The translations under genes were made by a program, and so were the position numbers. The notes under the pieces were generated by a model that saw only the letters and a list, made by a program, of their open reading frames with translations, had not been told where the DNA came from and searched no databases. From Gammaproteobacteria bacterium (GTDB lineage: Bacteria > Pseudomonadota > Gammaproteobacteria > SG8-11), in contig JAADIM010000080.1 of NCBI GenBank assembly GCA_013151345.1, forward strand, positions 1 to 38,773: a stretch of 38,773 nt of DNA, in the 5' to 3' direction. Shown piece by piece: positions 13,313 through 28,246 of the stretch (position 1 is the stretch's first letter; the number at the start of each line of letters is the position of its first letter).

Positions 13313-13425
13313 CTTATAAACGTAAGTACTTAGAAACGTGAGTACTTATAAACAATAAGTACGTATAAATCTAAGGACTTATAAACCTAAGTACTTATAA
13401 ATATAAGCACCAATGAACGTGGGTT
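13313..13425. repeat. Seven 16-17 bp degenerate tandem repeats (consensus about cttataaacstaagta)
   Basis: cttataaacgtaagta/cttagaaacgtgagta/cttataaacaataagta/cgtataaatctaagga/cttataaacctaagta/cttataaatataagca/ccaatgaacgtgggtt. Confidence 0.85.
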
Positions 13426-14379: not shown

Positions 14380-15417
14380 TTACGATGCTTTCACCAACCC
14401 GTACTTATTTAATGACCATTTAACGGCAAACCACGATGCGGCCAATACAATGGCAGTAACAATAAAGTCAAAAGCAGCCGTCATCGGTATGTGATACTGC
14501 TCTGTTATAATTGAACCAGAAATCCAGGTGAAACGTTCAAGCCAGGTGCCGACAACGATACAAGAAGCAACCATAATAATAACAATGGGATTATGACGAT
14601 TCGGTGTATAAACAGCAAAGGTCACAAATGGAATAATAAATTTGAGCGCAAGGAAGGTCCACCAAATAGGCGCCAAATCAAATTGCATCATTTGGTTAAA
14701 ACGGTCGAATTCTTCAGGCAATCGTCCATACCACATAATCAGATATTGTGTGAAATAGAAATAGGTCCACAAAATAGTAAAAGCTAACATAAATTGAGCC
14801 ATGTAATTAAATACAAACGGTTTAAAAGGATTTTTCAATTTACCTGAGCGATGAAGGAAAAACAGGAGCAGGGTAAAAAATGCCAAAAAACAATGAAAAT
14901 TACTGACAAAGTGGTAAACACCATAACTGGCACTGTGCCAGCTGGGCATCATTGTCATTTCAAAATCCCAGGCGATCATCGTGCCATACATCACATAGAC
15001 ACCTGGAATCAATAATGCAATGTTGCGGAATTTCCGATGCGCGGCTGGTGAGCTGTCAATCGATGTTTGATACTGCAGTTTAATAAATAATAGAAACATG
15101 CCAAACACAAGCAGAAAACCAATTATTTGCCTGGCTACCAGAAAAGTATAGTTGTGCCATCCCGGTAAGTGCTGATCTCCTTCATGCGCAGTGGCTAACC
15201 ATTGAAACGTAGACTCACCATTAATAAGTAATATTAATAAAAGTACAAAAGCGACCGGAAACAATGCAGCAAGCGAACACGCAATATATCGCACTTGAAA
15301 GCGCCATTTGCCGTTGACCAGATGCAGGATGGCTGAAAAAGTCACACCTGCGAGTGCCATAAAAAGCACGATTAAGAAATTCGTTGTTAAGACTGACCAG
15401 CTTCCAAAATTTTCCAT
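14380..15417 (-). CDS. actF: Alternative complex III subunit ActF (NrfD-like membrane protein)
   Basis: Multi-TM ORF, last in operon after ActE. Confidence 0.8.
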   Translation of the reverse strand: MENFGSWSVLTTNFLIVLFMALAGVTFSAILHLVNGKWRFQVRYIACSLAALFPVAFVLLLILLINGESTFQWLATAHEGDQHLPGWHNYTFLVARQIIGFLLVFGMFLLFIKLQYQTSIDSSPAAHRKFRNIALLIPGVYVMYGTMIAWDFEMTMMPSWHSASYGVYHFVSNFHCFLAFFTLLLFFLHRSGKLKNPFKPFVFNYMAQFMLAFTILWTYFYFTQYLIMWYGRLPEEFDRFNQMMQFDLAPIWWTFLALKFIIPFVTFAVYTPNRHNPIVIIMVASCIVVGTWLERFTWISGSIITEQYHIPMTAAFDFIVTAIVLAASWFAVKWSLNKYGLVKAS

Positions 15418-15467
15418 CGAGTTAACCCTTTACCTTTAATTACAAGAACACTGTAATAAATAAATAA

Positions 15468-16028
15468 TTATTTGTCCGCCTTGCTAGCTACAACAGGTTG
15501 CTTGGCCAACTGATTACGAACGTAATTCACTACATGCCAGCGCTCTTCTACTGAAAGATCGTTCGACCCACCACCTTCACCAGATATGCCGTACGCAGGC
15601 ATAATGGCACCACCGAATGTAATCGTGCCAAAAAGCCAACCTTCGGTTAAATCTTTTTGCACATATTCGGTTGTTAGATCAATCGCACCAATTTTCGGAC
15701 TAACTGGCGAGTCTGCTTTACCCGATAAGCCATGACATGCTGAACAATATATAATAAATAAACGTTTACCGATTTTTATCGAACCTTCAGTAACAGCTAT
15801 TGGATTTTGCAAGCTTTTGGCTTCGTCTCTATTCGCGACTGTTGTTAACACGCCGATAGTCGGTATTGAACGTGCCGGGAAAGAAAATATTTTTCCTTTA
15901 TACGTTTCTTGCGGCTTAACACTGGGCTGGTTCATCATATCTGTTGACCAGGGCCAGGCGAATACAACCGTCGGCACAAGCAATGATAATACAAACAGGG
16001 CAGGAATTAGCCTTCCATTAAACCTCAT
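15468..16028 (-). CDS. actE: Alternative complex III monoheme cytochrome c subunit ActE
   Basis: One CxxCH (CSACHGLSG), signal/anchor N-terminus. Confidence 0.85.
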   Translation of the reverse strand: MRFNGRLIPALFVLSLLVPTVVFAWPWSTDMMNQPSVKPQETYKGKIFSFPARSIPTIGVLTTVANRDEAKSLQNPIAVTEGSIKIGKRLFIIYCSACHGLSGKADSPVSPKIGAIDLTTEYVQKDLTEGWLFGTITFGGAIMPAYGISGEGGGSNDLSVEERWHVVNYVRNQLAKQPVVASKADK

Positions 16029-16552
16029 CGTATATCCTCTTCACGAATTTCTAACACTTTGTGTTGTTTAAATAAATCTTTTAGTGAATCGAGTTTGCTT
16101 TTATCCAATTCAACGATGACACCAATCTGATCAAGACTTACTTTTTCACTGTAGAGATTATGACGTTTTCTAAACAGCCTTGATAAAAACAAAAATGCAA
16201 AGAAGGTTGCCCACACGCCAAAGAAAATTATCATTTCATAAACCAAAACAAAATTTGATGGCAAAGGAATAACGGGTTTGCCACCTTGCGGCTGTACCAA
16301 AAACGTCGCTTGCGCACTGGCGAGAAACAAAAAGCCAAAGACCAAACCAAACATTGCGCCAGCCAATGTGAACTTTGGAAGATGGCAGGGACGATCACCC
16401 AGTACTTCTTCAATTTCTGGATGCTCAATGGGTGAATTCAATGTCACATCATCAATAGTTACACCCGGCACCTTTGAAGCACGAATATCATGTAAAGCAG
16501 AAAAAGCTTCTTCAAAATTATTAAACAAACCGAGAATTCGATAATTTTTCAT
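16025..16552 (-). CDS. actD: Alternative complex III subunit ActD (DUF3341-like)
   Basis: 175 aa, YRILGLFNNFEEAFSALHDIR plus two TM segments; operon position. Confidence 0.83.
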   Translation of the reverse strand: MKNYRILGLFNNFEEAFSALHDIRASKVPGVTIDDVTLNSPIEHPEIEEVLGDRPCHLPKFTLAGAMFGLVFGFLFLASAQATFLVQPQGGKPVIPLPSNFVLVYEMIIFFGVWATFFAFLFLSRLFRKRHNLYSEKVSLDQIGVIVELDKSKLDSLKDLFKQHKVLEIREEDIR

Positions 16553-16554
16553 TA

Positions 16555-17946
16555 TTAAGATGCTCCTTCCAGATTTGGCTTATTTGTTGCCGCACTGGCA
16601 CCCTCTAATTCAGCTTCACGTTTACGATGATAAACCATCTCTTTAACTTCATACATGGAAATGGAAGGAAAGACTTTTACAAATATCAAAAACAAGATAC
16701 CAAACCAACCAAAGCTACCAAATACAATTGCCCACTGTACAATACTTGGCCACATCACATCCCATTGATGTGACTGATGCGACATCGACAATGTCGGTGC
16801 AACAATCATCCAGCGTTCAAAATACATGGAAAGATTTAAAAATAACGAAACAACAAACATGGTCGGCATATGTCGCCTGAATTTCTGCACCGCAAGTGCA
16901 AACGGTACCACCATGCCACAGAAAATCATGGTCCAGAATACCCAGGCATAAGGCCCTGTCGCTTTGGCGATTAACAGTTCCTTGTCATACATATTATGGC
17001 CATACCAAGTAGCACCAAATTCAATCAAGTTCAGGTAAGTCCACACCATGGCAATTGCGAATGTAAGCTTGGCGGTTTTTTCCATAATAGCGGTTGTCAT
17101 ATATTCTTCGAATCGGAAGAAATAACGTAACAACACGAACAGCGTAATAATTGCCGCACAACCGGAATACAACGCACCTGCAACAAAATACGGCGGGAAT
17201 GAGGTGATATGCCAACCGGGCATAATCGACACAGCAAAATCAGACGATACGATAGAGTGTACAGAAACGGCCAACGGAATTAAGAAACAGGCCATTAACA
17301 AATAGGTTTTACGGAAAGTACGCCATTGACGGTCATTACCCGTCCAGCCCAGGGAAATCGCCGTATATAATTTTTTACGCCAGCCGGTCGTGTTATCTCG
17401 ACAGATAGCCAAATCGGGAATCATGCCTATAAAGAGGAAAAGCATTGATGCAGAAAGATAGGTGCTGATTGCAAAAGCGTCCCACGCCAGGGGTGATCTG
17501 AAGTTTGGCCAATGCCCACGATCACTCACATAAGGAAGTACCCAATACAGGTTCCAGACACGGCCCAAGTGAATCATTGGAAAAAAACCTGCCGTTAGTA
17601 GCGAAAACGTAGTCATCGCTTCAGCAAAACGGTAAATAGGTTTACGCCAGTCGGCATGAATAATATGCAAAATAGCTGAAAGTAATGTGCCTGAGTGGCT
17701 CATGCCGATCCAGAATACAAATGTAGCAATATACATATCCCACATATGTGGGTTATTCAAATTGGTTGGACCCAAACCTACTTGATACTGGTATACCTCG
17801 GCAACAACGGCACAACTGAACATGGCAAAACAGATAAAGAGTGCGACCCAATATGCCTTACGTGGATTCTCTAAACTGCGCAAAACATCAGTATTGATCT
17901 GTGCCCACTTTATTTGTTCGTTAATATCTTTTTCGCTTACTATCAT
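16555..17946 (-). CDS. actC: Alternative complex III NrfD-like subunit ActC
   Basis: 463-aa polytopic protein with FWIGMSHSGTLLSAILH and related NrfD motifs. Confidence 0.87.
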   Translation of the reverse strand: MIVSEKDINEQIKWAQINTDVLRSLENPRKAYWVALFICFAMFSCAVVAEVYQYQVGLGPTNLNNPHMWDMYIATFVFWIGMSHSGTLLSAILHIIHADWRKPIYRFAEAMTTFSLLTAGFFPMIHLGRVWNLYWVLPYVSDRGHWPNFRSPLAWDAFAISTYLSASMLFLFIGMIPDLAICRDNTTGWRKKLYTAISLGWTGNDRQWRTFRKTYLLMACFLIPLAVSVHSIVSSDFAVSIMPGWHITSFPPYFVAGALYSGCAAIITLFVLLRYFFRFEEYMTTAIMEKTAKLTFAIAMVWTYLNLIEFGATWYGHNMYDKELLIAKATGPYAWVFWTMIFCGMVVPFALAVQKFRRHMPTMFVVSLFLNLSMYFERWMIVAPTLSMSHQSHQWDVMWPSIVQWAIVFGSFGWFGILFLIFVKVFPSISMYEVKEMVYHRKREAELEGASAATNKPNLEGAS

Positions 17947-17994
17947 ATTACTGACTCTTCCGTTCTAAGATTTTAGGTTGTGGGATGAGAATAG

Positions 17995-18831
17995 TTATAT
18001 CTCTGTGTCTCGAACCCGTTCCATATACATAACAGATGGATCAACATTAAGTTCTTCAAAAATACGATAACCGCGCAATTCTGAATTACTTTTATTTTGT
18101 TTGGTTACTACTCGTTCTACTTGTTGTTTTTTCCAAAGCTTGGCGACCTGACTATCCTTATCCATGGTATCACCAAATACAATTGCCGATGTTGGACAAA
18201 CTTGGGCACATGCGGTGGTGAATTCACCATCTATCACTCTGCGATCCGCCATTTTGGCCTTGTCTTTTGCGACGCGGATACGTTGAACACAAAAAGTGCA
18301 TTTTTCCATAACCCCCTTGTCACGTACTGTTATATCAGGGTTTAACTGTAAATTTAGTGGTTCAGGCCAGGATGATTCGTAATAAGAGTAAAAGTTGAAG
18401 TAACGCACACGAAAAGGACAGTTATTGGAACAATAACGTGAACCAATACAACGGTTATAAACTTGTGCATTTAGACCATCAGGAGTGTGATAGGTAGCCG
18501 CAACAGGACAAACCGGTTCACAGGTGGCTGCTCCACATTGCTGACACATCATTGGCAAAAAGCTGGCACCACTGTCAGGGAATTCTTTCTCAGACTCATC
18601 AAAATAACGCTCGATGCGCATCCAGTGCATCGCCTGACCTTTATCAAATTTAGCCTTGCCTACAACGGCCAAATTATTTTCACTGTAGCACGCAACTGAA
18701 CATGCGTTACAACCTATGCACTTATCAAGGTTAATTGCCATGGTCCAGCGATGCTCGTAGTCATGATGACCACCTTCTTCAGCGCCACGACGATAATGGG
18801 ACCAATTATTAAGAATATTACTTAGTGACAT
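17995..18831 (-). CDS. actB: Alternative complex III iron-sulfur subunit (ActB2 as a separate gene)
   Basis: Ferredoxin-type Cys clusters CIGCNACSVAC, CQQCGAATCEPVCPVAAT, CIGSRYCSNNCPF, CTFCVQR. Confidence 0.87.
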   Translation of the reverse strand: MSLSNILNNWSHYRRGAEEGGHHDYEHRWTMAINLDKCIGCNACSVACYSENNLAVVGKAKFDKGQAMHWMRIERYFDESEKEFPDSGASFLPMMCQQCGAATCEPVCPVAATYHTPDGLNAQVYNRCIGSRYCSNNCPFRVRYFNFYSYYESSWPEPLNLQLNPDITVRDKGVMEKCTFCVQRIRVAKDKAKMADRRVIDGEFTTACAQVCPTSAIVFGDTMDKDSQVAKLWKKQQVERVVTKQNKSNSELRGYRIFEELNVDPSVMYMERVRDTEI

Positions 18832-18834
18832 TAT

Positions 18835-21072
18835 TTATGCTCCTTCTGTGCGCTTGAGCACTTCTACGGGAATCGTTCGAACAAACTTACGACCGACCTG
18901 TGTATCATTGCCCCCCAATCTGACAAACACATCTTCTTTACCTAAGGCCGTGACTTTCACCCGGGTAGCATACATAGCCAGCTCACCCGTTTTGCTATCT
19001 GTTCTCGCTGTAAGAATCTTCAACGGATTAACGCCAAGACCTTTTGCATAACGCCCAAACTCTTCATGGCCCTGCCCCAATGGGATAGCAATGGTATCCG
19101 GATGAACACCTTTAATTATATAAGCCTTCAGCTTTATCGATCCGTTTTCAGACGCAACTTCAATTAGATCGCCATGACTAACACCAATTTTCTTCGCGGT
19201 GTTTGGGTGCATCTCTGCCCATGAATCCCAAACCACTTTTGAAATTTGGTCCGGTGATTCTTGTAACCATGGCAGATTAGCGTGGCGACCATCATATAGG
19301 CCCAATCTTGCGACGGGTGCTAGCTGATAGGGGTAAGCGGAATCAGTCTTCTCTTCCGGTAATTTAATAGTCACATTTTCTGTTGATATGGTCGATGCAA
19401 ACGTATTTTTTTGATCCGCAACATCAATCAACCCCGTCTTTAATGTCTTGTTCCAGAATTGTAGATCTCCGGCTTCAGGTTCTTTAATTGAAGATGAGCC
19501 TCGCAGGGTTTTGATCGCATCCTGCAAATATGCATAATAATCTTTATATGAACCGTACTCGTCAGGTTTTTTGTCTTTTAATAAATCGAGCAATATATCA
19601 CCCAAACCTTTGGTATCACTGTATAAGTTATTCATCAAGGGCTGTTGCACGGCGACTATATTTCGATCTTCTTGATATGCAGGGACATGCGTTCCCCAGT
19701 CTTCTGCATAGGAAGAAAGAGGTAGAACCAGATCGGCCTGCATTGTGGTTTCATCAGGAAACGTCGACACGGCCACCTTAAAACCAACATTGCCTAGCGC
19801 GTCTTTCAGGCCCAGAGAGTCAGGCGCCGTAAATACAGGATTGCTGCCGCTAAAGAAAACCACATCAAACTTTTTAGATTTAGCCGCATTAGTAAATTCA
19901 ATTAAATCACGTGTGTTACCTGGTTTTGCTTGTAACTGCGGAAAAGGAGTGGCATTGGAAGGTTGAATCGTTTTACCGACATTGCCGAGAACAATATTTA
20001 ACAGCATTATCGCTGCAACAGCGTCATAGCCATGTTCATGCCCTTCAACTGACGCACCGGCCAATACTAGGCTCGGAGAGCGTTTAATTAACGCATCACC
20101 AATTCGTTTAATATAGTCCTGAGATGTACCAGCAATTTGAGCAACTTTCTCCAGACTATATGAAGATATTAAATTTTGTTGCTCGCTCGATATATTATTT
20201 CCCGCATTCGGTGAATTCTTTATTACATAATTCACCAAACCTAACGCAATCGCCCCTTCGGAGCCGGATTTAGCAGGCACCCACAGATCGGCGTTACCAC
20301 CAGTTAACGTCATTTTACTTTCTACTTGAATGAGCGTACCGCGACCCGCACCTGCTTCTGCTGATCTAAACTCCCCCCATTTGCCGGCAAAATGAACAGG
20401 TGATACCCAAGTGCCCAGAAAATCAGCGCCGAAAGATAAAATGAGCGCCGCTTTGTCCATATGCAATTCTGGCATGGAGTCGCCCAGCATGTCTTTATTC
20501 ACTGCCTGCCAAACCGCAGCGTTAACTACATCATGTGTAAAATGGCTTTCAGTTGATGCATCGACAGCATCCAGGTAGTTAGTAATTAATGCTGATTGAT
20601 GCCCACTGATCGTACCGGTAAACCAGCCAATTTTTTTGCCTGCATTGCTTAGTTTTTGTTTTAGCGCGCTATTGGCCTGCTCCCAAGAGACAGCTATTAA
20701 TTTGCCGCCTTCACGCATCATCGGCTGGGTAATTCTATCCGGATTATAGTGGCTTTGTACGCCAGCCTGGCCCATTTGGCATGTTTTGCCTTTATTAATG
20801 GGTGAATCAGGATTTCCTTCGACCTTTAGAAAACGTCCTTCGCGTACCCGTCCATGTATGCCGCAACCTGCATCACATTGTAAACAAGTCGATGCAAACC
20901 AGACACCCACACCTGGAATGACGTACTCTTCCGGCATAAAATAGGAAACAACATCTTCCTTACCTTCTTCCAATGTGACGGTTGACGGCAAGTCGCAACC
21001 CGCAAGCGTGCCACCGACACCACTGACGCCCATCATTTTAAGAAAGTCTCTACGTTTTACTGGTCCATTCAT
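18835..21072 (-). CDS. actB: Alternative complex III molybdopterin-oxidoreductase-like subunit (ActB1)
   Basis: Tat-like motif RRDFLKMMG, lipobox-like LAGC, CLQCDAGCGIHG...KGKTCQMGQ, oxidoreductase-like body. Confidence 0.87.
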   Translation of the reverse strand: MNGPVKRRDFLKMMGVSGVGGTLAGCDLPSTVTLEEGKEDVVSYFMPEEYVIPGVGVWFASTCLQCDAGCGIHGRVREGRFLKVEGNPDSPINKGKTCQMGQAGVQSHYNPDRITQPMMREGGKLIAVSWEQANSALKQKLSNAGKKIGWFTGTISGHQSALITNYLDAVDASTESHFTHDVVNAAVWQAVNKDMLGDSMPELHMDKAALILSFGADFLGTWVSPVHFAGKWGEFRSAEAGAGRGTLIQVESKMTLTGGNADLWVPAKSGSEGAIALGLVNYVIKNSPNAGNNISSEQQNLISSYSLEKVAQIAGTSQDYIKRIGDALIKRSPSLVLAGASVEGHEHGYDAVAAIMLLNIVLGNVGKTIQPSNATPFPQLQAKPGNTRDLIEFTNAAKSKKFDVVFFSGSNPVFTAPDSLGLKDALGNVGFKVAVSTFPDETTMQADLVLPLSSYAEDWGTHVPAYQEDRNIVAVQQPLMNNLYSDTKGLGDILLDLLKDKKPDEYGSYKDYYAYLQDAIKTLRGSSSIKEPEAGDLQFWNKTLKTGLIDVADQKNTFASTISTENVTIKLPEEKTDSAYPYQLAPVARLGLYDGRHANLPWLQESPDQISKVVWDSWAEMHPNTAKKIGVSHGDLIEVASENGSIKLKAYIIKGVHPDTIAIPLGQGHEEFGRYAKGLGVNPLKILTARTDSKTGELAMYATRVKVTALGKEDVFVRLGGNDTQVGRKFVRTIPVEVLKRTEGA

Positions 21073-21158
21073 AGTTTGAATCTCTTCGTTGTTTACGCGT
21101 TAATCGCTTACTCGTTAGTCACTGGATATTATGCTGGGCAATAGAATAGACTGCCGAA

Positions 21159-21731
21159 TTACTTATGGCACTTCCAACAGTCACCAGGGCCACCATTAGC
21201 TTCGTGGCAGCTGACACACCAGCCCATATTTAGCGGCTTAACCTTGTGGGCCACGGTCATGTTTTTAACCTGGCCATGACAAAATGCACACACTTCTTTG
21301 ACATCTTCAACGGGGAAATCCTGATCAAACACGAACCGTTTTATGTGACGTTCATGCGTGAAGTGAACAAAATCGGGTAAGTCATGTACCTTTTTCCACT
21401 TGGGAGATTCACCTTTTGTCCAGTACTCGGTTAATTTTTGAATTCGAGGCTTATCAGTCGCTATTATTTTGTGACAACCCATACATTTGCTTGTCGGTGG
21501 AATGCCAGCCACCTTGCTGCGGCGCGCATAGGTATGACAATACATACAATTTATTTTATTTACTTCCACGTGAATGTCGTGCGGAAATTCAATGGGCTGT
21601 GGCACATCGACACCGTCGTGACTACCGCCCGGTGGTATCGCATCGACCGCTAAAGCGGGACTTTGGCCTGGTCCAGCAATGTAAATCACTGCAACTAATG
21701 TTGAAGCTAAAAGGTACTTCAGTGCCTTCAT
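21159..21731 (-). CDS. actA: Alternative complex III pentaheme cytochrome c subunit ActA
   Basis: Five CxxCH motifs: CMYCH, CMGCH, CAFCH, CVSCH, CWKCH; signal peptide. Confidence 0.9.
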   Translation of the reverse strand: MKALKYLLASTLVAVIYIAGPGQSPALAVDAIPPGGSHDGVDVPQPIEFPHDIHVEVNKINCMYCHTYARRSKVAGIPPTSKCMGCHKIIATDKPRIQKLTEYWTKGESPKWKKVHDLPDFVHFTHERHIKRFVFDQDFPVEDVKEVCAFCHGQVKNMTVAHKVKPLNMGWCVSCHEANGGPGDCWKCHK

Positions 21732-26381: not shown

Positions 26382-26482
26382 TAAATCGTAAGTAACAACG
26401 CCGTACCAAGTTAGCCTAACACTTAACGCTAGCAGCAATGCTGGTCACTTTGTCATAATCACTTAAACTCAGGAGAAATACT

Positions 26483-26572
26483 ATGGGTGGAATGGGTGGC
26501 GGTGGCGGTGGCATGGGCGGCGGTATGGGCGGTGGTATGGGCGGTGGTGGAGGAATGGGCGGCGGAATGTAA
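26483..26572 (+). CDS. 29-aa peptide composed only of Gly and Met
   Basis: MGGMGGGGGGMGGGMGGGMGGGGGMGGGM*; RBS aggaga 6 nt upstream of ATG; missing from ORF track on this strand. Confidence 0.7.
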   Translation: MGGMGGGGGGMGGGMGGGMGGGGGMGGGM

Positions 26573-26704
26573 TTCGCTGAACACTCTCTATTACTGAACA
26601 TAGTTACCAAACTACATAACGCTAAAGTCTATGTACACTCGTTACTACATAAAAACGTAAGATGTAAATATGTATATTATTTATTAGCAATAAAACAAGG
26701 GGAT

Positions 26705-26732
26705 AAGGGGATGTCGCTGTTTGACTCCCCTT
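26705..26732. terminator. Possible stem-loop terminator downstream of microgene 1
   Basis: aagggga ... tcccctt followed by T-rich tract. Confidence 0.4.
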
Positions 26733-26863
26733 TCTATATTTGTACTTTTGATCTTTCTACTTTTACTTTCCGCTTTATAAAAGATGCTTAACACAGAGTA
26801 CAACATTCCTTCCTGCCTAACTCAATGTTATACAAAAATATACTGATAACCCCTGATTTAATT

Positions 26864-26941
26864 GTGGGGCGATACATCGTGGAGCTATGCATTTGTGGAG
26901 CTATGCATTTGTGGAGCCATGCATTGTGAGACTATGACTTA
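26864..26941. repeat. About 16-bp tandem repeats (gtggagctatgcattt), 5 units, outer ones degenerate
   Basis: Units at 26864, 26879, 26895, 26911, 26926. Confidence 0.8.
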
Positions 26942-27213: not shown

Positions 27214-27324
27214 CAATTAAGATTACAGTTAAGAATACAGTTAAGAATACAATTAGCGATGTGTGAAGCACTATTAGAAACTTGATAGTGAAATACTTGA
27301 TAGTGAAATACTTAATAGTAAAAC
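27214..27324. repeat. Two short tandem arrays: 12 bp (cagttaagaata) x3 and 15 bp (acttgatagtgaaat) x3
   Basis: Read directly at 27214-27249 and 27280-27324. Confidence 0.8.
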
Positions 27325-27415: not shown

Positions 27416-28246
27416 TTATAATTCTAGGCGGAAATACAACAAACTGACCAACCCGTCTGCAGCGGCGACGATCATTTCTGAGTTAGTTTTGTGAACGACC
27501 GTACCAATTTCGTAATTGTGTGATTGCGTCCACGCGTTAAGTCCATAGACCGACCAATTTTTGTTATCAAATCGAGCAAAGCACCCCGTTTTTCCAAATG
27601 CACGGCAGATACGCTCTAATTCTTCAACTGGTTTATGCCAGTCGAGGCTGCGCTGGTCTTTATCAGGTCTTGGCCAGTAGCTTGCGTCATCGCCTTGCGG
27701 CGTTGCATTATCCCAAAACCGATCAATTTCAGTGACTACTTCCAACAGCAAATCTTTTGCTAATAGCTGCAATCTAGCCGACAATGATTCGAAAGTTTCA
27801 TGCTCGGTTATCGGAAAGGACTGCTGGCGCAAAATATCGCCCGCGTCGTATTCCTGGGTCAATTTATGTATCGTCACACCGCATTGCTTGAGGTTTTTGA
27901 GAATAATCCATGGCAAAGGCATCACACCTCGTCCAATCGGTAATAAGGTAGGATGAATATTAATACCTTTTATCGTCGTCGAAGACAAATCAGGGATCTT
28001 GTAATAATACGCTGCAGTAACTAATAACTCACACCCTTCGTTGTGTAGCTGGTTGATAATTTGTGCATCAACACGCTCCTGCGTGACAGGTATTTTATGT
28101 TCGCGACACATTTCAAAAATATACTGATTATGATCAACCTGATTATCGCACGGCACGGTATAGACACGATAAACATCCTGCCCATCCGCAAGCAGCGCCG
28201 CAAGTGCGGCGCTAAAAAAATCATAACCAAAATAAGCAATTTTCAT
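27416..28246 (-). CDS. Formyltransferase-family protein (methionyl-tRNA/ArnA-like fold)
   Basis: GINIHPTLLPIGRG and VTIHKLTQEYDAGDIL carry the expected N-H-D catalytic residues. Confidence 0.82.
   Translation of the reverse strand: MKIAYFGYDFFSAALAALLADGQDVYRVYTVPCDNQVDHNQYIFEMCREHKIPVTQERVDAQIINQLHNEGCELLVTAAYYYKIPDLSSTTIKGINIHPTLLPIGRGVMPLPWIILKNLKQCGVTIHKLTQEYDAGDILRQQSFPITEHETFESLSARLQLLAKDLLLEVVTEIDRFWDNATPQGDDASYWPRPDKDQRSLDWHKPVEELERICRAFGKTGCFARFDNKNWSVYGLNAWTQSHNYEIGTVVHKTNSEMIVAAADGLVSLLYFRLEL

Follow-up and report, generated by a model that had tools for sequence, protein, structure and literature searches.

A family of glycine/methionine-only microprotein genes in Gammaproteobacteria, found beside ABC exporter genes and recurring as a tail on secreted redox proteins

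Can a chain built from two amino acids be the product of a real gene, and what might such a product do? The question is raised by a 29-codon open reading frame (peptide A, positions 26483-26572) on a gammaproteobacterial contig of 38,773 nucleotides, the whole of which is referred to here as the window. Translation of the plus strand gave MGGMGGGGGGMGGGMGGGMGGGGGMGGGM followed by a stop codon, and the AGGAGA motif was found 6 nt before the ATG, confirming an earlier note on this DNA that had described a 29-residue ORF of 22 Gly and 7 Met with a nearby ribosome-binding site. The glycine codons were 9 GGT, 9 GGC and 4 GGA, and the chance of a 28-codon run of GGN and ATG at approximately 40% G+C was estimated to be of the order of 1e-35. 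Peptide A has its own Shine-Dalgarno (SD) site and ATG, is preceded by an in-frame stop 9 codons upstream, and stands alone in the intergenic stretch between two minus-strand genes, those encoding the SpdSyn-like protein and the formyltransferase (Table 1). A second Gly/Met gene, that of peptide B, lies further along the contig at 30904-31080; the earlier note on peptide A does not name it. An attenuator or leader peptide was ruled out, as there is no plus-strand gene within 1.7 kb downstream. A scan for consensus promoters and terminators gave no signal above background; the hairpin downstream of the gene was absent from its terminator list and is thus only suggestive. Rfam covariance models gave no match at the peptide A locus and a single tRNA elsewhere in the window. 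At the curated NCBIfam cut-offs, peptide A belonged to no family, and peptide B and the other members had no credible match.

Table 1. Positions of the features discussed, in window coordinates
Feature	Position	Strand	Remarks
Module 1 membrane protein with a fused spermidine-synthase-like domain (MFS_SpdSyn, NF037959), 1045 aa	22723..25860	-	Divergent from peptide A
SD site AGGAGA of peptide A	26471..26476	+	6 nt before ATG
Gly/Met microprotein A, 29 aa	26483..26572	+	Intact in relatives; change at third positions only; GGGM-stop end
Possible 3' hairpin of peptide A transcript, weak T run	26690..26744	+	-18.3 kcal/mol, z -2.8
Module 2 formyltransferase, Fmt/ArnA type, below equivalog cut-offs	27416..28246	-	In 3/4 module 2 genomes
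Module 2 SEC-C motif protein	28369..29562	+	Assigned by its motif
Module 2 2OG-Fe(II) oxygenase with SEC-C-like motif	29600..30442	-	Conserved residues fit facial triad H180/D182/H243, with R253
SD site AAGGAGG of peptide B	30892..30898	+	
Gly/Met microprotein B, 58 aa: 27-residue Gly/Met block and Pro/Ala/Thr/Val tail	30904..31080	+	Own SD; counterparts in relatives
Module 2 MsbA-like ABC exporter (ABC1)	31237..33012	-	Convergent with peptide B
Module 1 MsbA-like ABC exporter (ABC2)	33091..34851	-	Orthologs adjoin peptide in relatives
GroEL, itself with GGM tail	35196..36851	-	Frequent module 1 neighbour; also near peptide in G001, G004, G374, HyVt-444

Comparison with relatives, all of them MAG-like drafts, bore directly on the coding status of the locus. 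In 22 complete micro-ORFs, orthologous or paralogous, the 792 codons comprised 613 for Gly, 161 for Met and 18 for other residues; the Gly third positions were C (323), T (222), A (65) or G (3), and no frameshift or stop was seen. Changes fell on third codon positions in 290 of 308 cases, a split of 290 versus 18 that has P ~1e-113 under equal rates per codon position, to be taken as a guide only because the changes are not independent. When synonymous and nonsynonymous changes were compared with the same-genus relative, as the earlier note had proposed, all seven substitutions in the CDS were at third positions and synonymous, and the three CDS indels were 6, 3 and 3 nt, all multiples of three. 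Identity to this relative was 92% in the CDS, 82.5% over the 60 bp upstream, 75 to 77% over the 160 bp downstream and, beyond these flanks, 58 to 68%. The antisense frames of the micro-ORFs had no conserved extent or coherent limits and almost no SD, by which an antisense gene was ruled out. Because of the third-position changes, the in-frame indels, a CDS identity above that of its flanks and the incoherent antisense frames, the sequence comparison establishes 26483-26572 as a genuine protein-coding microgene under protein-level constraint. The selection on the protein that the earlier note had suggested is strongly supported by the free Gly third positions and the lack of frameshifts and stops in the 22 micro-ORFs; neither of the contrary signs it had named, frameshifts or stops in orthologues and a conserved antisense frame, appeared.

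A G-rich repeat, sRNA, leader or other DNA or RNA element, or an antisense gene, could account for a G-rich and repetitive sequence with a possible 3' hairpin and with untranslated regions conserved in the sister genome for ~60 to 160 nt on each side. Such an origin is scarcely credible, however, for a locus at which the third positions vary freely and the first and second are fixed, the indels are in frame only, no coherent antisense frame or Rfam match occurs, and each ORF examined has an SD with a precise start and stop. Chance or a repeat artefact was ruled out by third-position variation, in-frame indels and lineage restriction.

DNA searches of related genomes found a peptide A/B pair at equal spacing in the same-genus relative; other families yielded additional short Gly/Met ORFs, with several copies per genome. 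Approximately 30 stand-alone Gly/Met micro-ORFs were collected from Gammaproteobacteria, each one examined having a strong SD; relatives carry GGAG(G) at a similar distance from the start. The products are 18 to about 70 aa long, usually end in GGGM-stop, and include MGGMGGGGMGGGMGGGGMGGGMGGGGMGGGM (G001), MGGGMGGGGMGGGMGGGGGMGGGGGMGGGM (G040) and MGGGMGGGMGGGMGGGMGGGMGGGGMGGGM (G242) as well as members of 52 to 60 aa in HyVt-444, NORP100 and ALJrbin.2. No stand-alone member has a signal sequence. When distribution was scored as an SD, an ATG and Gly/Met codons, the pattern was present in 5/5 genomes of the window's order, in 10/24 of a second order and in 1/399 drawn across the phylum, the one being the window's own. 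A collection of 84,980 species gave at least 118 matching stretches, at least 12 of them with a stand-alone ORF and at least 11 of these Gly/Met; among the matches listed, these 11 or more came from records labelled Gammaproteobacteria, Ectothiorhodospiraceae or Proteobacteria, one further stand-alone ORF was a 17-residue polyglycine from Poribacteria, and most of the rest were Gly/Met runs inside longer ORFs. The Gly/Met runs of Planctomycetes, Nitrospira and other bacteria are likewise found within longer ORFs or at their ends, unlike the stand-alone genes described here. In open-access literature, a search for such peptides, motifs and tails yielded papers on GroEL tails, silk, silver-binding model peptides and microproteins in general, and nothing else. 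We could thus find no described family, in that literature, NCBIfam or Rfam, that matches these Gly/Met-only microproteins, and a description elsewhere is possible. One Gly/Met peptide (G384, L298:1342-1533) is interrupted by a GDIDMGDIDF repeat.

The partners of these genes fall into two modules. Module 1, consisting of the MFS/SpdSyn-like protein, a Gly/Met peptide and an MsbA-like ABC exporter, was found in 11 genomes from five families (G000, G001, G002 at a contig edge, G003 with an assembly gap, G037, G040, G242, G304, G378, G381 and G391), a tally that includes some genomes with only one of both partners on the contig. Orthologs of MFS_SpdSyn (E below 1e-100) occurred in 9 of 369 genomes of the class, and eight of the nine have a Gly/Met gene adjoining the ortholog. 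In seven of the nine the adjoining gene was a stand-alone one, although among these seven it was cut by a contig edge (G002) or an assembly gap (G003, G037) or lay near an edge (G304). In the other two genomes, multicopper-oxidase-like genes with Gly/Met segments took the place of the peptide (G162), or the ortholog had no Gly/Met gene beside it (G131). The linkage was kept despite rearranged order and different flanks (G242 L246, G040 L031), and the differing gene order in G242 indicates that it is not mere frozen synteny. Module 1 often lies near groEL or an alternative-complex-III-like cluster; in the window such a cluster, with cytochrome c, molybdopterin-like and NrfD-like subunits, occupies positions 14380-21731.

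Module 2 consists of an ABC exporter, a Pro/Ala-rich Gly/Met peptide (peptide B), a 2OG-Fe(II) oxygenase and a SEC-C protein, whose fold prediction was poor (pLDDT 38.6 from three sequences). The two modules are interleaved in the window and lie on separate contigs in G391. Counterparts of peptide B were found in G001 (L036:12998-13183), G391 (L243), G040 (L285) and probably G004 (L051), and an ABC1-type exporter adjoins the Pro-rich peptide in G391 and G040. The oxygenase was present in 4 of 26 screened genomes, in all four with a Pro-rich Gly/Met peptide and an exporter of the ABC1 type as neighbours. The G040 peptide of this module reads MGGHGGGMGHGAAPAPAPG...PAGGHGGGM and has His where the others have Met (MGGHGGGMGHG...GGHGGGM).

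A precursor-size peptide, candidate modifying enzymes and an ABC exporter in each module bring to mind clusters of a RiPP precursor, an ABC exporter and a 2OG oxygenase. The Gly/Met chain would then be a precursor or core, which the SpdSyn-like protein (module 1) or the 2OG oxygenase, formyltransferase and SEC-C protein (module 2) would modify before its export as a bioactive compound. That the oxygenase residues fit an Fe-binding triad, and that the gene tracks the Pro-rich peptide in 4/4 cases, is consistent with this. Nevertheless, we consider a RiPP-like role quite unlikely, since the chains begin with the repeat and have no separate leader, typical core residues (Cys, Ser, Thr) are missing, no known RiPP enzyme is among the neighbours, the SpdSyn-like protein is the sole candidate enzyme in module 1, and the genes, in convergent or divergent order, do not form an operon. 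The transporters also differ from double-glycine bacteriocin exporters: only the ABC_membrane and ABC_tran domains reached cut-offs, no C39 peptidase domain was found, and the models matched were generic MsbA-like ones, below equivalog cut-offs. The peptide and ABC transporter genes are convergent and do not form one operon. Because the transporters have no C39 domain, the peptides have neither leader nor signal, and the convergent genes are not an operon, export of the peptides by their neighbours is something we only infer.

The residues themselves bear on whether methionine or glycine matters more. Among 131 intervals between Met residues, ranging from 1 to 15, M-G3-M was the commonest (54); spacings of 4 and 2 were counted 24 and 21 times. 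This preferred spacing, the His in Met positions of the G040 member of the B type and the Cys in some members would suit a Met-rich microprotein binding Cu(I) or Ag(I), either as a sponge or as a shuttle, in the cytoplasm or exported. Multicopper-oxidase-like pairs with Gly/Met segments at the ABC/SpdSyn locus (G162) or near it (G242) point the same way, as do two peptide loci divergent from CpxRA-like genes (L032:8387-10813 and L238:2907-5476), a place which we take to be the cpxP position of E. coli. Cpx and copper stress are linked in that species, according to one report (PMC11005409). SilE-type Met/His-rich proteins are comparable in their repeated Met, here as M-X3-M potentially binding Cu(I)/Ag(I), and in the His of one member; the peptides differ from them in that they lack a signal peptide and sil/cus/pco neighbours, contain hardly any other residue and do not conserve Met. 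Nearly pure polyglycine occurs in the module 1 gene of G003 and in G004_A, the C-terminal part of which is almost free of Met, and a Gly/Arg member (MGGGRGGRGGGMGGGGRGG...), in which Arg takes up most Met positions, lies at the ABC locus of G374 (L234:7221-7325), a locus with no SpdSyn-like gene. On the sequences compared, then, glycine is the more conserved residue, and Met-poor and Arg members exist. Genes for a copper efflux pump, CueR or a copper chaperone were recognized beside none of the copies, and we know of no metal role for the main partners, the SpdSyn-like and MsbA-like ABC proteins. Metal binding is the main rival reading; because of the Met-poor and Arg variants it is doubtful, though to be taken seriously.

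The flexible tail to which the earlier note likened the composition comes close to what is known of the Gly/Met tails of GroEL, which adopt polyproline-II (PPII) structure and resemble the elastic protein abductin (PMC12571646). These tails are functionally important (PMC11978752). The GroEL/Hsp60 tail likewise contains only Gly and Met, several genomes have groEL nearby, and elsewhere copies are flanked by HSP20/DegP or Usp genes, so that a cytoplasmic partner or mimic of the GGM tails, serving as a chaperone or stress accessory, may be imagined. Many copies are far from groEL, however, which has its own tail, and the same block on secreted cytochromes (see below) would be left unexplained. 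Unlike the GroEL tail, peptide A does not follow a Cpn60 domain in the same ORF and stands alone with its own SD, start and stop; the peptides are tied to ABC/SpdSyn genes, and their spacing is mostly GGG or GGGG and not a (GGM)n repeat. We therefore regard a GroEL-related role as very unlikely. Abductin and the glycine-rich PPII-bundle proteins named in the same tail study (PMC12571646) are also Gly/Met-rich and PPII, but they are animal or large structural proteins, whereas the peptides are bacterial and short, and the likeness is one without shown homology.

The GGGM-stop end was also found on larger proteins. As a C-terminal pattern it occurred in 10 of 369 genomes of the class, 0 times in the reversed control, and in 11 of 25 chosen relatives. 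Contig-end-cut matches aside, the proteins were either Gly/Met microproteins or secreted proteins, the latter mostly multihaem cytochromes; these have between 10 and 129 CXXCH motifs, and in several of them a Pro/Ala linker precedes the tail. The other secreted ones were a PKD-repeat-like protein, in which 4 CXXCH motifs were counted, and one further protein. In the window's own genome, which is 68% complete, no secreted Gly/Met-tailed protein was found. In G005, G162 and G242, a multicopper-oxidase-like protein has a Gly/Met block near the N-terminus. Such proteins occur as pairs (L246:12489-14694, L053:1895-4111, L263:5466-7687), in each of which one partner has a twin-arginine-like signal and the other has no signal and carries Gly/Met blocks near its N-terminus. 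The ORF with 129 CXXCH haem motifs (L301+L040; G002:C131:13983-23807) is complete, encodes 3274 aa and has a Pro/Ala and Gly/Met tail; its sister proteins have 79 (L043) and 43 motifs (L042, L046).

Segments rich in Pro and Ala, such as the tail of peptide B, are PPII-prone as well. Because glycine is the more conserved residue, GroEL tails adopt PPII and Pro/Ala segments tend to do so, we tentatively favour a microprotein of the PPII/polyglycine-II type, exported by the neighbouring ABC transporter and acting as a matrix or adaptor common to the tagged surface redox proteins. Function would reside in glycine, with methionine contributing a modulating side chain; the peptides would fold into PPII/polyglycine-II helices like the GGM tails of GroEL, self-associate, and leave the cytoplasm through the neighbouring transporter. 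The Pro-rich segment of the module 2 peptide may be hydroxylated by the 2OG oxygenase of that module. Outside the cell, the Gly/Met chains could form a matrix or adaptor onto which proteins with the same tail dock. Against this reading, GroEL tails did not form bundles spontaneously in solution (PMC12571646), the window's own genome yielded no secreted protein with the tail, and some copies of the peptide gene have other surroundings, namely the cpxP position, HSP20/DegP or QmcA/NfeD. In its fullest form, which we hold to be unlikely, this would amount to an undescribed secretion-and-assembly system, in which exported Gly/Met microproteins, prolyl-hydroxylated in one module, build a PPII/polyglycine-II matrix on which tagged multihaem cytochromes and multicopper oxidases dock through a C- or N-terminal Gly/Met tag.

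Should the peptides serve surface redox proteins as a structural or docking material, uncultured Gammaproteobacteria would be building their electron-transfer surface on a new principle; should the peptides bind metal, they would approach a minimal two-residue metal-binding protein. In both cases it becomes testable whether a protein of two amino acids can be conserved and have a function. Genes this short and of such low complexity escape standard gene calling and BLAST, and trypsin finds no Lys or Arg in the 29-residue peptide, so such genes are easily missed by both annotation and proteomics.

Two minor observations were made alongside. Gly/Met(-Tyr) repeat proteins that are secreted and bear signal peptides (L033:8971-9321, L058:1276-1723), perhaps sulfur-globule-protein-like, were kept apart from the family. 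The window also contains a 16-bp tandem repeat, CTTATAAACCTAAGTA, in 5.5 copies between two genes (13313-13401), and further short tandem repeats at 26861-26936, 27217-27255 and 27280-27323.
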